Assembly (NCBI GenBank): GCA_016782755.1
Contig: JADHXY010000007.1
Coordinates: 1 to 33,089 of the forward strand
Length of the DNA: 33,089 nt
Reading direction: 5' to 3'
Source: Phycisphaerae bacterium
GTDB lineage: Bacteria; Planctomycetota; Phycisphaerae; Sedimentisphaerales; Anaerobacaceae
Made by a program: the position numbers and the translations under genes. Of this stretch, positions 549 to 13,030 are shown one piece after another; the stretch's first letter is position 1; every line of letters begins with the position of its first letter. The notes beneath the pieces are model-generated. The model had not been told where the DNA came from and did not search any database. It saw only the letters and a list, made by a program, of their open reading frames with translations.

Positions 549-585
549 TAAAAAAACCAACCTCCTTTCAAAGATTGGCTTTTTT
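549..585. terminator. Bidirectional terminator-like hairpin between convergent genes
   Basis: An A-rich arm ending in CCAA (about 550-560) can pair with TTGG plus a T run (575-585), with one bulged C and a loop of about 14 bases. It lies between tex on the plus strand and the histone-like gene on the minus strand, and has a T run on either strand, so it could end both transcripts. Confidence 0.55.
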
Positions 586-610: not shown

Positions 611-844
611 TTACAAATCCTGAGGTTTGACGGTACTTCTCCTATTTGCCTTGGTTCTTTCAATAGCAGCATCCAGCAGACAATAGACCTGACAGCTTAA
701 TGCAGCAATAGAATCTGAAGAACTCATCATACCTTTGCTCTTAACATAAGCCTTTACTTTACTGGCTACAACCAATACTTCCTTACAGGAACATTTCTGT
801 GCCGTTTTCTGTGCAGCCTTTTTTGCTACTTTTTTCTTTGCCAT
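611..844 (-). CDS. Small histone-fold protein with Lys/Ala-rich N-terminal tail
   Basis: 77 residues. Residues 1-17 are a basic tail of AKK/AQK repeats. From residue 22 the pattern EVLVVASKVKAYVKSKG, then a long helix (about 43-68) and a loop RRSTVKPQDL, follows the layout of a histone fold: alpha1, alpha2, then the L2 loop with R-x-T-V-x-P-x-D resembling the RKTI..ED of archaeal histones. The protein stops right after that motif, so alpha3 is missing or reduced, as I recall for some bacterial histones. The ATG has a good ribosome site (AAGGAAG about 9 bases upstream). The likely role is DNA binding or compaction. No homology search was run; the fold call is from pattern recognition. Alternative: another small DNA-binding protein. 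Confidence 0.7.
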   Translation of the reverse strand: MAKKKVAKKAAQKTAQKCSCKEVLVVASKVKAYVKSKGMMSSSDSIAALSCQVYCLLDAAIERTKANRRSTVKPQDL

Positions 845-1028
845 TTCTTTTCTTCCTTGAATAAGACTATTATCCTAAAAAGCTAACGATTAGCTTCTAC
901 GAGATTCTAAGGGCTATTTTGACTGTTTTAAGTGAATTAGGCAATGAAAAAATGGGGTATTAAAAATTGTTTTAGCCGTTTCAACATCATTTATCGTAAC
1001 GCCAGCTTGCAGCCGGCAGTTTCCCGTT

Positions 1029-1704: not shown

Positions 1705-2541
1705 ATGAAGAAGATTGAAAAAGCATTAGCCCAATATTGGGGATTTGAGACTTTTCTGCCGTTGCAGAGACAGGCCATGGAGTGCATCAGCCGTGGTATT
1801 GATTCGATTGTAGTTCTTCCCACCGGAGGTGGCAAATCTTTATGTTTCCAGGCACCCGCGGTGACAATGCCGGGGCTTGCGGTTGTAGTTTCTCCCCTGA
1901 TTTCTCTAGTCGCACAGAAAATACTTTCCTGCATTGTTCGTCTTGAGCAGATGTTTGGCGGCGGCTATGTTTCTTTGGTATTGACTGGCTCCAGGGATAA
2001 ACGGATCGTGGAAAATAATCATGATACGCTAAGTACTTACGGTCTGCTCAGCGATTATTCAAAACACACTGTGCACGATTGGATTGAACAGCTTACCGGC
2101 CAGGACTATATTGAGAAGTATGGTGAATATAATGTTCTGACAGTTACGGAAAAAGGACGCACCGTTTTAAAAGGCCTGCAAACTCCACGCCTACTCAAAC
2201 CAGTCATTCAAAAGGCCAAAGTCAAACTATCAAAGGCTGTTACGGATTCATGGGAAGGTGTAGATAAGGAACTGTTTGAGGCCTTAAGAAAATTGCGATC
2301 AAAGCTTGCCGGCAAAAAGAAAATCCCCGCGTATGTAGTTTTTAGTGATGCCGCACTTAGAGATATGGCCAGGAAAAGACCAGCATCTCTTGACACCTTC
2401 CTTAATGTCAAAGGAGTGGGAGAAAAGAAATACAAAAAATATGGAGAAACGTTTATTACTGCTATTAAAGATTACTGTTTTGAGCATTCATTAAATAGAG
2501 GTAATTCAGTTAACGATAATGAAAAAGACTCTCAGAATTGA
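1705..2541 (+). pseudogene. recQ: RecQ-like helicase with the motor core deleted
   Basis: 278 residues against roughly 600 for a normal RecQ. Residues 1-68 are the RecQ N-terminus: the Q-motif region (FLPLQRQAM), Walker A LPTGGGKS with Lys44, and VVVSPLISL. The next residues (from about 70) AQKILSCIVRLEQMFGGGY already belong to the RQC winged-helix domain, followed by an HRDC domain at about 190-265 (KELFEALRKLR, PAYVVFSDAAL, KGVGEKKYKKYG). Helicase motifs II-VI (including DEAH), motif V/VI Arg residues and the zinc site, some 320 residues, are absent, yet the frame is kept. It should not unwind DNA but could still bind it. ATG at 1705 is the first in-frame Met next to the family start; no strong ribosome site is seen. 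An assembly collapse is possible. Confidence 0.85.
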
Positions 2542-3199: not shown

Positions 3200-4111
3200 A
3201 TGCGATCAATCAGTACAAGAAGAAAGTTAGTCGAGGAAGAAGGACACCGGCACTCCATAAAGAGGGGTTGGAGGTGGAAGCTGCATTTCGAGAACATCCC
3301 TTTGCTTGTTCGTTTTTTCTCTTTCTTACTGAGGACCAGTTTTACCAAAGTCATAGGAATGCGAAATGCGATGGATGTAAGGCTGAATGAAGTGCACTTT
3401 GCTTTTAGTGACCTTCCAGCAGGATTTGATAATACACGGATACTGCTGGTGACAGATCTACACATAGATGGTATGGATGGGTTGGCGGAGATGATAATTA
3501 CAACCTTAGGCGATGTTGAGTATGATTTTTGTATTCTGGGAGGCGATTATAGTTTTGGGTGCAATGATGACCACGGTTTAGTGTGCGAGAGAATGAGGAC
3601 AATTGCTGAATTTCTTGGCCGTAAATCCAGGGTTTTCGGCGTATTGGGCAACCATGATAAGTATAAAATTGGACAGCTTCTGAATGAATGTGGCGTGGAG
3701 ATATTACTAAATGAAACTGTGTGTATAGAGAAGGGAAGTGATAAGATATATATAGCAGGGCTTGATGACAACCACTATTATGGTGCAGATGATCTCGAAC
3801 TGGCTGATAAAGGCATTACGGACGGCGCATTTAAGATAATGGTCTGCCATTCACCTGAACGGTACCTGGAGGCAGCAGATTCGGGGTATTCGTTGTACTT
3901 ATCTGGCCATACGCATGGTGGACAGGTTTGTTTGCCTGGCGGTGTAGCGTTAGTTACTTCCGCAACCGTTCCGCGAAGACTGGTCAAAGGCAGGTGGACA
4001 TATCAGGGAATGAGTGGGTACACGTCACGAGGAGTTGGAACATCGGGGATTACAGTACGTTACTTTTGTCCGCCGGAGATGACGGTGGTTACGCTCAGGC
4101 ATGGCATGTAA
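3200..4111 (+). CDS. Calcineurin-like metallophosphoesterase (YaeI/YkuE type)
   Basis: 303 residues. The dinuclear metal site of the family is complete: DLHI (D-x-H), GGDY (the Asp of the GD motif), GNHDK, CHSPE and GHTHGGQ near residues 235-242. The last motif plus the preceding membrane-proximal segment (LLVRFFSFLLR, about 35-45) resembles the YaeI/YkuE group, which act on phosphodiester or pyrophosphate bonds of lipids or nucleotides at the membrane. The exact substrate cannot be read from the sequence. The first 55 residues are basic and poorly conserved, so a later start such as the Met near residue 54 cannot be excluded. The gene is monocistronic and converges on the VAKKK-repeat gene. 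Confidence 0.88.
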   Translation: MRSISTRRKLVEEEGHRHSIKRGWRWKLHFENIPLLVRFFSFLLRTSFTKVIGMRNAMDVRLNEVHFAFSDLPAGFDNTRILLVTDLHIDGMDGLAEMIITTLGDVEYDFCILGGDYSFGCNDDHGLVCERMRTIAEFLGRKSRVFGVLGNHDKYKIGQLLNECGVEILLNETVCIEKGSDKIYIAGLDDNHYYGADDLELADKGITDGAFKIMVCHSPERYLEAADSGYSLYLSGHTHGGQVCLPGGVALVTSATVPRRLVKGRWTYQGMSGYTSRGVGTSGITVRYFCPPEMTVVTLRHGM

Positions 4112-4204
4112 GCAAGCACGAATTTCCACCAATCAACAAATGGATGCTTAGAATAACTTGGTGCCTCATAATCAGAATGTCAAATTCAGACTGACCCAAA
4201 CTGT

Positions 4205-4268: not shown

Positions 4269-4406
4269 TTATTGCTTTTTCTTAGCTACTTTCTTCTTGG
4301 CAGTTTTCTTCTTAGCGACTTTCTTTTTTGCAACTTTTTTCTTAGTTACTGTCCTCTTAGCCACTTTCTTCTTTGCTACCTTTTTCTTTGCTTTCTTCTT
4401 TGCCAT
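4269..4406 (-). CDS. 45-residue lysine/alanine repeat protein (VAKKK repeats), histone H1-tail-like
   Basis: The product consists almost only of Lys, Ala and Val: MAKKKAKKK followed by six to seven copies of a five-residue unit VAKKK, with one variant unit VAKRTVTKKK in the middle and a final Gln. It has no hydrophobic core and should be unfolded until it meets DNA or RNA; it resembles the C-terminal domain of histone H1 and the short H1-like proteins of some bacteria. It is a real gene rather than a shadow: a strong ribosome site AAGGAGAG lies 8 bases before the ATG, and the stop is followed by a perfect hairpin. It shares the MAKKK start with the histone-fold protein 3.4 kb away. Length may vary by repeat number. 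Confidence 0.75.
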   Translation of the reverse strand: MAKKKAKKKVAKKKVAKRTVTKKKVAKKKVAKKKTAKKKVAKKKQ

Positions 4407-4565: not shown

Positions 4566-6074
4566 TCAAAGACTATCTCCATCTTCATCTTGTTTCTGCT
4601 CGGTCACGAGGCCTTGTTCCAGTTTTCTGGCATATTCAACACAGTATCTTGCCCAGGGCTTGGCTTCGAGTCTGGCCTTGGATATCGGCACACCGGTAGC
4701 TTTACAAGTGCCGTAAGTTTCCTGCTCGATACGCTCCAGAGCATCTTCGATTTTCCTCAGCAGTTTCCTTTCATTATCCATCAATCCCAAAGCAAATTCC
4801 TGTTCGTAGTTATCAGTCCCTGCATCGGCCATATGGATAGGCATACTTGAGATATCTCCATCGGAGGCTTTAAGAGCCTCTTCCTCTATTTCACTTACAT
4901 TACCAATTATCTCCTGGCGTTTTTTCAGCAAGATTTGCCTGAAATGTTCAATGTCAACCTTCTGTCCGGTATCTACCGTCGCATTGCTGTAGCCATACTC
5001 TTCTATTAAAGTCTCAATAAGTTCTTTAACAGAAATGATTTTATCTACCCGATAAGTGTTAGCTCCCGCGAAAGCAAATCCGTTTTCAAGATCACCCTTT
5101 TTTGCATTCGCCAACGCAAGAGCGATACAATACGGCACATTTTTAAAATCACAACTTTTCAGACACTTCCAGGGACACTTGAAAGTTTCCTTAACTCCTG
5201 ATGAGACCCGCTCAAGAAACTCATCTCGGATGGCTCTTCCAGGCAGTCCTACGGGGCTGTCAATTATGACTATGTCTTCTTTCTTGCAGTTTAAATACGC
5301 ATCCTTAAATTCCTGAAACGCATCACATTCACGAGTTGCGACAAACCTGGTTCCCATCTGCACACCCTGAGCACCTAACTGCATAAACTTATGAATGTCC
5401 GCACCAGTGTATATTCCTCCCGCTACGATCACTGGGACGCTTTTAATAAACAATTTTTCATAGGGTTTTATTGCAGTGATTACTTCCGGCAGTATCTTTT
5501 CCAGCGCATAGTCGGGGTTGTCAATCTGCTCTTTTTTGAAACCAAGGTGTCCACCTGCTAATGGTCCTTCTACAACCACCGCATCGGGTATGTGGTTAAA
5601 CTGTTTTGCCCACGATCTAAATATAATCTTGGCAGCCTTAGCGGAAGATACGATAGGGACGAATTTAGTAGGCAGTTCCCCTAATTTGTCCAGTGGCAAT
5701 GAGTTTGGAAGCCTTATTGGAAGGCCTGCTCCAAGAAAAAGTATATTCGCTTCCTCTTGCACTGCACATTGCACAAGGTCGTCGAAATCTGAAATGGCTA
5801 CCATTATATTTACGCCAATGACCCCGTCTGTCTTGGCTTTTGCTTTTTGGATTTCTTCCCGCAACGCTCTTTTGTTTGCTTCTTTAAAATTTGTTTTGAG
5901 GTCCGGCTCAAACATCCCGATCCCAGCAGTAGCGATAACACCTATCCCGCCGGCATTTGCAACCGCAGAAGCTAAACCTGATAGTGAGATTCCGACCCCC
6001 ATGCCTCCCTGGACAATTGGTATATCAGCTTCCCAATCTCCTATCCGTAGCACTGGCATCTTTTTATAACTCAT
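4566..6074 (-). CDS. Nitronate monooxygenase fused to a DksA/TraR-type domain
   Basis: 502 residues from the ATG at 6074, chosen because AGGAAAC lies about 10 bases upstream; a TTG at 6098 is in frame but less likely. Residues 5-358 are an FMN-dependent nitronate monooxygenase/2-nitropropane dioxygenase TIM barrel: VQGGMGVG, VVVEGPLAGGHLG, VIVAGGIYTG, GVQMGTRFVAT, and a Cys-rich end (CPWKCLKSC). Residues about 374-485 are a DksA/TraR domain: a coiled coil (EHFRQILLKKRQEI ... NERKLLRKIEDALERI) and the YGTC..TG.PI...RL.A.PWARYC signature. Only two of the four zinc Cys remain (457 and 478; the partners are Thr and Tyr), as in other reduced DksA-like proteins. The monooxygenase oxidises nitronates or works as a FabK-like reductase; the DksA part would bind RNA polymerase. 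The fusion is unusual. Confidence 0.85.
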   Translation of the reverse strand: MSYKKMPVLRIGDWEADIPIVQGGMGVGISLSGLASAVANAGGIGVIATAGIGMFEPDLKTNFKEANKRALREEIQKAKAKTDGVIGVNIMVAISDFDDLVQCAVQEEANILFLGAGLPIRLPNSLPLDKLGELPTKFVPIVSSAKAAKIIFRSWAKQFNHIPDAVVVEGPLAGGHLGFKKEQIDNPDYALEKILPEVITAIKPYEKLFIKSVPVIVAGGIYTGADIHKFMQLGAQGVQMGTRFVATRECDAFQEFKDAYLNCKKEDIVIIDSPVGLPGRAIRDEFLERVSSGVKETFKCPWKCLKSCDFKNVPYCIALALANAKKGDLENGFAFAGANTYRVDKIISVKELIETLIEEYGYSNATVDTGQKVDIEHFRQILLKKRQEIIGNVSEIEEEALKASDGDISSMPIHMADAGTDNYEQEFALGLMDNERKLLRKIEDALERIEQETYGTCKATGVPISKARLEAKPWARYCVEYARKLEQGLVTEQKQDEDGDSL

Positions 6075-6222
6075 ATTTTTTTGTTTCCTGTCAGTCAACC
6101 TGTATAATTATCCGGGACTTTGCAAAGAACTCAGCACCTGGACTTGTCCACAGTATAAAACAAAACGCTCCTTTTTAGAAGCTTAAAATAAGTTGACTTT
6201 CTGATCAAGCTGGTTTAAGCTG

Positions 6223-10373: not shown

Positions 10374-11531
10374 GTGAATAAAATTAAAATCGGGATTGTT
10401 GGTGTGGGTAACTGTACAAGTTCGTTACTCCAAGGTATTGAGTACTATAAAAACAAGAATAGCAAAGATGTTATCGGACTAATGCACTGGGACATCAATG
10501 GATATAAACCATATGATATCGAAGTGGTAGCTGCGTTCGATATCGACAAAAGAAAAGTTGGAAAGGACGTCAACGAAGCCATATTCGAAAGGCCAAACTG
10601 CACCACAGTATTTTGTAAAGATATGCCCAAAACCGGTGTTGCGGTGAAAATGGGTAAAATTCTCGATGGTTTTTCGGATCATATGAAGGGTTATGACGAT
10701 GACTACACCTTCGTGCTCAATGGTGAGCCTGAAGCGACGAAAGAGGATATCGTCCGAATCTTGAAGGAATCCGGCGCTGAGATACTATTAAATTACCTCC
10801 CTGTTGGTTCTGAGGAAGCTGCAAAGTTTTATGCCGAATGTGCTCTGGAAGCAGGTGTGGCGTTTATAAACAATATACCTGTTTTTATAGCAAGCAATGC
10901 AGAATGGGCAAAGAAGTTTGAAGAAAAGAACATACCAATAATAGGCGATGACATTAAGGCCCAACTTGGCGCGACAATTACTCATAGAGTCTTAACCGAC
11001 CTCTTCAATAAAAGAGGGGTAAAGTTAGAAAGAACTTACCAACTCAATACAGGCGGAAATACTGATTTCCTCAATATGCACAAAAGCAGCAGGCTCGACT
11101 CCAAGAAAATATCAAAGACAGAAGCTGTACAGTCTGTTACCACCAATAGATTGGCTGGTCGTAATATTCACATTGGCCCAAGCGATTATGTTCCATGGCA
11201 AGATGACAACAAGGTCTGTTTTATCAGGATGGAGGGTAAGCTCTTTGGCGACGTGCCGATGAACCTGGAATTGCGGCTGAGCGTGGAAGACTCGCCAAAC
11301 TCGGCAGGTGTTGTCATTGATTCAATCAGGTGCTGCAAGCTGGCCCTTGATAGAGGCCAAGGCGGTATCCTGGACGGTCCATCGGCATATTTCTGCAAAC
11401 ATCCACCGTGCCAGTATACCGATGATCAGGCCTACAAGTTGGTTGAGCAGTTTATAGCTGATGGAAAAGAGACTGTAGCTGATGAAAAGCCTGATCGTAC
11501 CTTCGAAGAAATGCAACAGATTACAAAATAG
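10374..11531 (+). CDS. ino1: myo-Inositol-1-phosphate synthase
   Basis: 385 residues, the length of the prokaryotic enzymes. The NAD-binding Rossmann start is KIGIVGVGNCTSSLLQG; the catalytic part has LLNYLPVGSEEA, GDDIKAQLGATITHRVL and LNTGGNTDFLNM, which are family signatures, and a Lys-rich active site region near KSSRLDSKKISKT. It converts glucose-6-phosphate to 1L-myo-inositol-1-phosphate in the cytoplasm, the first step of inositol metabolism. The start is GTG at 10374 with AAAGGA upstream. It is followed 134 bases later by the enzyme that uses its product, so it heads an inositol-phosphate cassette. Confidence 0.95.
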   Translation: MNKIKIGIVGVGNCTSSLLQGIEYYKNKNSKDVIGLMHWDINGYKPYDIEVVAAFDIDKRKVGKDVNEAIFERPNCTTVFCKDMPKTGVAVKMGKILDGFSDHMKGYDDDYTFVLNGEPEATKEDIVRILKESGAEILLNYLPVGSEEAAKFYAECALEAGVAFINNIPVFIASNAEWAKKFEEKNIPIIGDDIKAQLGATITHRVLTDLFNKRGVKLERTYQLNTGGNTDFLNMHKSSRLDSKKISKTEAVQSVTTNRLAGRNIHIGPSDYVPWQDDNKVCFIRMEGKLFGDVPMNLELRLSVEDSPNSAGVVIDSIRCCKLALDRGQGGILDGPSAYFCKHPPCQYTDDQAYKLVEQFIADGKETVADEKPDRTFEEMQQITK

Positions 11532-11665
11532 ACATGCTGGCCAGGGGCTTTAGTAAAACGATATTGGACTGAAGGTCGGCCCGTTCTTACGGTAATCCCA
11601 CCGAATGAAGCAGCTTGTAATGTGATAGAAGAATTCGTTATTGGTAAACGTGAGGGCTAAGAAAA

Positions 11666-13030
11666 ATGAAATGCCTTATACTTGCCGCAGGCAAAGGAAG
11701 CAGATTGGCAGCAAGGGGTGATTCAAAGCCCCTTGTTTCGTTTCTGGGGCTTACTCTCATTGAGCGGGCCATTCTGGCTGCACAAAGCTGCGGTCTTACG
11801 GAGTTTTATATTGTAATCGGCTGCAACGGCGAAAAGGTAAGGGTATTCTTAGATAAATTCAGCCGGGAGAAAAACCTGAATATTACCCATGTCATAAATG
11901 AAGATTGGGAAAAGGAAAACGGTCTATCTGTTCTTAAGGCGAAGGAATTATTGGATGAAAAATTCATTCTAATGATGGTCGATCACATTTTTGACAGGGA
12001 TATTCTGGTCAAGCTGACACAACAGCAGATACAAGAAGGTGAGGTGATATTAGCTGTTGACTCAAACGTAAATTCAAACAGCATGGTTGACATTGACGAT
12101 GTCACAAAAGTACATATCGAAGACGGCAAAATCCTTGACATCGGCAAGGACGTCTCTGAGTATAATGCATTTGATACGGGTTTTTTCCTTTGCAGCCCTT
12201 CGATTTTTGCAGCCATTGAGACAAGCATTGACCGTAATAATGATAGTACGCTTTCGGGCGGAATAAGGATACTGGCCAACGCTGGTGCCGCCCGGGCACT
12301 CGACATATCTGGAAAATTCTGGATTGATTTAGATGATGAAAAAGCCCTGCGCAAAGGCGAAAAGTGTTTATTGGGCAAACTAAAAAAGCCGTCCGATGGC
12401 CCCGTCTCTAAGCATCTCAACAGGTCCATATCTATTAGTCTCACACGATGTCTGGTCAAAACGAAAATAAGCCCGAACCAGATATCTTTTCTGTCGTTTA
12501 TCCTTTGTGTAATAGCCTCGGCCCTATTTTTTGAAGGTGGCTATCTCACTCTTCTCGCGGGGGCTATCCTCGCCCAAATCGCATCTATAATTGATGGCTG
12601 CGATGGGGAAATAGCAAGATTGAAATTTCAAACCACAGACTTTGGAGGTTGGTTTGATGCAGTATTGGATAGATATGCTGATGGTTTTCTTTTATTTGGT
12701 TTAACGTATCATGTTTATTTAATGAATAGCACTTTCTTGCATATCACCATTGGTTTTTTGGCAATCATGGGATCCTTTATGAATAGTTACACGGCAGACA
12801 AGTATGATGGTTTGAGGAATGGCTTGCTGAGTAAACGAATCGGTTCAAAAGGTTTTTCTTTCAGAATAGGTCGTGATGTTAGAACGCTCATCATATTCAT
12901 TGGTTGTTTAATAAACCAGCCTCTCTTTATCCTAATCTGGATTGGTACCATAGCGAATTTGGAAAATATCCGAAGAATAGTGGTTTTAAGTAAAGTTGAA
13001 AAATATAGTTTGCTTAAAAAAGAAGATTGA
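11666..13030 (+). CDS. Bifunctional inositol-1-phosphate cytidylyltransferase / CDP-alcohol phosphatidyltransferase (IPCT-DIPPS type)
   Basis: 454 residues in two domains. Residues 1-235 are a sugar-phosphate nucleotidyltransferase (ILAAGKGSRL, DSKPLV, VDHIFD), which would make CDP-inositol from CTP and inositol-1-phosphate. Residues about 255-445 are a membrane CDP-alcohol transferase with the full signature: Asp310, Asp313, Gly314, Ala317, Arg318, then GGWFDAVLD, and several membrane segments. This domain order is that of the enzyme making di-myo-inositol phosphate-phosphate in thermophiles such as Archaeoglobus and Rubrobacter. The acceptor could be inositol-1-phosphate (a solute) or a lipid; the sequence does not decide. 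The upstream synthase supplies the substrate; the HD protein overlaps its 3' end. Confidence 0.88.
   Translation: MKCLILAAGKGSRLAARGDSKPLVSFLGLTLIERAILAAQSCGLTEFYIVIGCNGEKVRVFLDKFSREKNLNITHVINEDWEKENGLSVLKAKELLDEKFILMMVDHIFDRDILVKLTQQQIQEGEVILAVDSNVNSNSMVDIDDVTKVHIEDGKILDIGKDVSEYNAFDTGFFLCSPSIFAAIETSIDRNNDSTLSGGIRILANAGAARALDISGKFWIDLDDEKALRKGEKCLLGKLKKPSDGPVSKHLNRSISISLTRCLVKTKISPNQISFLSFILCVIASALFFEGGYLTLLAGAILAQIASIIDGCDGEIARLKFQTTDFGGWFDAVLDRYADGFLLFGLTYHVYLMNSTFLHITIGFLAIMGSFMNSYTADKYDGLRNGLLSKRIGSKGFSFRIGRDVRTLIIFIGCLINQPLFILIWIGTIANLENIRRIVVLSKVEKYSLLKKED

Follow-up and report, generated by a model that had tools for sequence, protein, structure and literature searches.

Does a short gene near one end of a Phycisphaerae contig encode a histone with a basic tail, and would such a protein pack DNA in this bacterium? 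The question arose from an initial annotation, made from the letters of a 33,089-nucleotide stretch of DNA (hereafter the window), which read a tailed histone fold at positions 611-844. The source genome is 1.86 Mb in size and 84.6% complete, and its relatives are Phycisphaerae/Sedimentisphaerales within the Planctomycetota. Here, we describe the gene and its product, and then compare them with relatives in the family and with characterized histones.

The gene and its start

The gene lies on the reverse strand (611-844) and has 77 codons, encoding MAKKKVAKKAAQKTAQKCSCKEVLVVASKVKAYVKSKGMMSSSDSIAALSCQVYCLLDAAIERTKANRRSTVKPQDL. The ATG start is preceded by a leader (845-865, reverse strand) with a Shine-Dalgarno-like AAGGA about 10 nt upstream, and the frame is closed by a stop codon 33 nt upstream. 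Just 3' of the gene, a terminator-like hairpin is followed by a run of T (550-585, reverse strand); two such sites were found in the window versus 0.4 expected. The position of the hairpin, read from 585 to 550, suggests that transcription ends behind the histone gene.

A mis-called start could create an apparent N-terminal tail, and we rejected this explanation. Codons 1-39 contain no ATG or GTG in between, and the sole TTG, at codon 24, is already inside the fold. Since there is no alternative start before codon 24, the tail must be translated, given a normal start of the gene.

Several other genes in the window were recorded. The ORF at 1705-2541 (forward strand) is a RecQ remnant, in which the start of a DEAD domain is joined directly to RQC and HRDC domains; the helicase core thus seems to be largely missing, and the ORF is probably a pseudogene. 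At 4566-6098 (reverse strand), a nitronate monooxygenase is fused to a DksA/TraR zinc-finger domain, and a copy of this fusion with 76% identity is found at locus L042, about 3 kb upstream of its histone. By eye, neighboring ORFs at 10374-13030 (forward strand) look like an inositol-phosphate synthase and a fusion of a nucleotidyltransferase with a CDP-alcohol phosphatidyltransferase, which hints at inositol lipid synthesis.

Fold and family assignment

The histone fold was borne out by both structure prediction and profile search. The closest match was HLp, the FtF histone of Leptospira perolatii, which has been crystallised (9QT0, 9QT1, 9QT2; PMC12701072): phmmer aligned residues 20-76 of the window protein with 9QT0 at E=2.8e-16, and a profile built from 41 relatives matched it at 7.7e-27. 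The AlphaFold2 model has helices at residues 27-36 (alpha1) and 44-66 (alpha2), with block means of pLDDT of 84-95 across the core (residues 21-77; 614-784, reverse strand). Its best Foldseek matches are 9QT0 and 9QT1, with an rmsd of 0.7-0.8 Å (0.7 Å for 9QT0), a TM score (target) of 0.96, and 52-53% identity; the VIA comparison gave Z 7.9. Pfam gave no match at E up to 1, including PF00808, PF00125, and PF09123 (DUF1931), and NCBIfam has no family for this protein. The Pfam histone models weakly matched a few of the relatives and scored the whole group poorly.

The third helix had been described as absent. It is indeed truncated, but one turn remains at residues 74-76, in the motif PQDL, before the chain ends at residue 77; this is the case in all alpha3-truncated histones, whose defining trait is an alpha3 cut to 3-4 residues (PMC11390915). 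Nucleosomal histones of archaea and eukaryotes have a full alpha3 of about 10 residues, whereas the window protein stops after one turn.

The core also carries the residues that define the FtF group. With window positions numbered as HLp position + 14, the HLp tetramer residues R49, N53, and R55 correspond to R63, N67, and R69, and the RD clamp (HLp R55 and D62) to R69-D76; HLp T57 corresponds to T71. These fit the R, N, and RxTxxxxD pattern of FtF histones (HMM positions 48, 52, 54, 56, and 61), the five positions at which the published profile is strongest (PMC11390915). None of the five (R63, N67, R69, T71, and D76) varies in 70 distinct sequences or in the 41 that were aligned. The HLp DNA contacts A13, S14, K15, K17, K21, and T57 are all identical in the window histone (A27, S28, K29, K31, K35, and T71), while T27, G29, and T56 are replaced by S41, S43, and S70. 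At the HLp interface, S52, T61, and F63 are replaced by A66, Q75, and L77, which are typical of the planctomycete relatives. Sequence and model together show a core equipped with residues that would serve the RD clamp, dimer-dimer contacts, and backbone DNA contacts.

HBb (Bd0055) of Bdellovibrio (8CMP, 8FVX) has the same alpha3-truncated fold, with an rmsd of about 1 Å to our model, and is the next-best sequence match (phmmer E=6.5e-6 for 8CMP), so the window histone might instead be a dimeric DNA-bending protein of that type rather than a tetrameric wrapper. We consider this very unlikely: HBb is dimeric and lacks the dimer-dimer R and N, having S and D in the phmmer alignment at the positions of R63 and N67, both of which are present here and invariant in the 70 sequences. 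The profile likewise scores HLp at 96.5 bits versus 51.5 bits (8.3e-13) for HBb. The archaeal FtF histone HTkC (9F2C) shares the FtF fold at 34-36% identity (phmmer E=0.0093). Altogether, the window protein is a bacterial FtF alpha3-truncated histone, kin to HLp, of a kind already described and largely ordinary.

The protein has four cysteines, at residues 18, 20, 51, and 55. The first two form a CSC motif that closes the tail; C55 is common among relatives, while C51 is unique among the 70 sequences, replacing the usual D, N, or E.

The N-terminal tail

The first 20 residues (785-844, reverse strand) form a basic tail with a net charge of +7, where the initial annotation had read a tail of 17 residues, and similar tails recur in dozens of homologues. 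The pLDDT falls to about 50-55 over this stretch in the AlphaFold2 model, so that the tail is probably disordered. Across 71 distinct relatives, the stretch ahead of the fold ranges from 1 to 35 residues and reaches at least 11 in about half; a 61-residue value (L069) is the product of start-codon choice and was left out of this range. Nearly all tails of at least 11 residues are Lys/Ala-rich and basic. Of 343 long ORFs from the loci of these histones, none has a comparable K/A-rich N-terminus, and the basic tail of the window histone is beyond chance. With about half of the relatives tailed and none of the control ORFs, the tails are genuine and common in the group. Parsimony counted eight tail-state changes, on a tree from the 57-residue core that has too few columns and leaves many forks open.

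The tail had been called unusual for a prokaryotic histone. Prokaryotic histones at large are described as usually tail-less (Hocher 2023, PMC10627809; Hu 2025, PMC12701072), and that general statement explains the surprise; it does not hold for bacterial FtF histones, which often have tails, most of them with positive charge (Schwab 2024, PMC11390915), nor for the relatives examined here. Archaeal FtF histones, HTkC's group, are generally without tails (PMC11390915). The likeness to eukaryotic tails is one of charge only.

FtF histones with N-termini of the opposite charge were also seen: those at four loci (L062, L063, L064, and L067) are acidic, e.g., MFEETPAAPAA.

A second histone and a conserved gene order

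Histones were found in 68 of the 89 genomes of the family, and HU-type proteins in 81 of 89, including the genome of the window. In one genus (g40; genomes G072-G080), the histone is in none of nine genomes and HU-type proteins are in all nine, an apparent lineage loss of the histone. Planctomycetota has already been named as an FtF phylum (PMC11390915) and as a clade where histones persist (PMC10627809).

The genome of the window encodes a sibling histone of 63 aa, with six residues ahead of the fold, on another contig (C23; 1498-1689 of locus L002). The sibling sits in a gene order conserved across about 60 loci, in which a 112-aa protein without a Pfam family and a DUF2007 protein are divergent, followed by the histone and then a family-4-type (GT4) glycosyltransferase. 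The glycosyltransferase was matched in 63 loci, at a median of 64% identity, which confirmed the gene order. At this position, the histone is short in 31 cases and tailed in 17 across genomes, a few of these records possibly being near-duplicates. The window histone lies outside the conserved order. A link to the SMC/MAP neighborhood described for Leptospira was rejected, since inspection by eye revealed it at neither of the genome's two histone loci.

The core of the window histone is 88% identical to that of a tailed histone from another planctomycete (L032) but shares 66% identity with that of its sibling; in the tree, it belongs to a group of 19 rows, mostly tailed, with support of 95/83. 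Forcing the two copies into one clade was 28 log units worse but was not rejected (p-AU 0.108), a result compatible with transfer as well as with an old duplication. A tailed copy outside the locus together with a short copy inside it also occurs in three other genomes (G051, G052, and G085); four have two short copies (G018, G030, G067, and G069), and many have a single copy, tailed or not.

Under one reading of this arrangement, the tailed copy would be a duplicate, either decaying or specialized, that has no general packing role and leaves the short copy at the conserved locus as the working histone. In its favor, the window copy does not share the conserved gene order, a RecQ gene close by seems to be a remnant, and C51 stands in place of the usual D, N, or E. 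The functional residues are all intact, however, the start, Shine-Dalgarno sequence, and terminator-like hairpin are in place, and other genomes likewise carry tailed copies away from the conserved locus (L006, L028, L022, and L091), so we judge a decayed or specialized duplicate unlikely.

Comparison with characterized systems and proposed mode of action

The window histone resembles HLp in its fold, one-turn alpha3, RD clamp, R/N/R tetramer residues, and DNA-contact lysines, at 52-53% core identity. HLp as studied has 63 aa and a short N-terminus, whereas the window histone has a 20-residue Lys/Ala tail and four cysteines; the HLp species is without HU, whereas the genome of the window encodes both HU and a second histone. 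The tailed FtF histones described from Planctomycetota and other bacteria (PMC11390915) share its family, phylum, and positive N-terminal tails. The window copy differs from them in lying outside the conserved neighborhood and in coexisting with a short copy.

We hold with high confidence that the window protein is an FtF alpha3-truncated histone, which would act as a wrapping tetramer. The HLp tetramer wraps about 60 bp with no sequence preference (PMC12701072). By homology, four copies of the window histone are predicted to form a ring-shaped tetramer of two dimers, which would bind DNA without sequence preference and wrap about 60 bp. The lysine-rich tail may add electrostatic contacts to the wrapped or neighboring DNA, and the tailed copy may function alongside the nearly untailed copy and HU, or in mixture with them.

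An extension compatible with wrapping by such tetramers is that tailed and nearly untailed copies join in mixed tetramers, making the number of tails per particle adjustable. Both copies are present in one genome, each with the full set of interface residues, and pairs of a tailed and a short histone recur in the same three genomes named above; many genomes, however, encode just one histone, tailed or not. We regard mixed tetramers as possible but somewhat improbable.

The VAKKK peptide

A chromatin-like packing of DNA had been proposed for this lineage from the histone together with a VAKKK protein 3.4 kb away. The second ORF exists (4269-4406, reverse strand) and encodes a 45-aa Lys/Ala-rich peptide that is HC2/H1-like in composition only. 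Neither this peptide (E=0.1) nor a similar one of 67 aa on another contig (C104; 4e-7) reaches the Pfam cut-off for HC2 (PF07382). HC2/H1-like proteins resemble the histone tail and the free VAKKK peptides in composition, whereas no match to HC2 was obtained with the core of the histone. Free peptides of this type were found in two of the 89 family genomes, G043 being the only other one matched, in a search that is weak because of low complexity. These sequences hint that the lineage has basic peptides that bind DNA. Thus, DNA packing by the window histone is likely, given its homology to HLp, but a tie of the VAKKK peptide to the window histone is not supported: peptides of this type were rarely found in this low-sensitivity search, HU is present, and the peptide is generic.

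At one further locus (L073), a tailed histone gene that is divergent and has a GTG start (3956-4168) is preceded, about 85 bp upstream, by a gene for a 34-aa Lys/Ala peptide (3767-3871).

Implications

More speculatively, some Phycisphaerae might have a two-component chromatin, in which a locus-bound short FtF histone is joined by a dispersed tailed variant, arising by duplication or transfer, and perhaps by linker-histone-like Lys/Ala peptides, with tail dosage tuning compaction; we think this rather unlikely. After the papers of 2023-2025, the window gene alone is unsurprising; its contribution is a clear example of a bacterial FtF histone from a planctomycete. Histones at a single conserved gene position have tails that range from almost none to 35 residues. 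The presence of tailed and nearly untailed copies in one genome is mildly interesting and offers a natural comparison for the role of bacterial histone tails.
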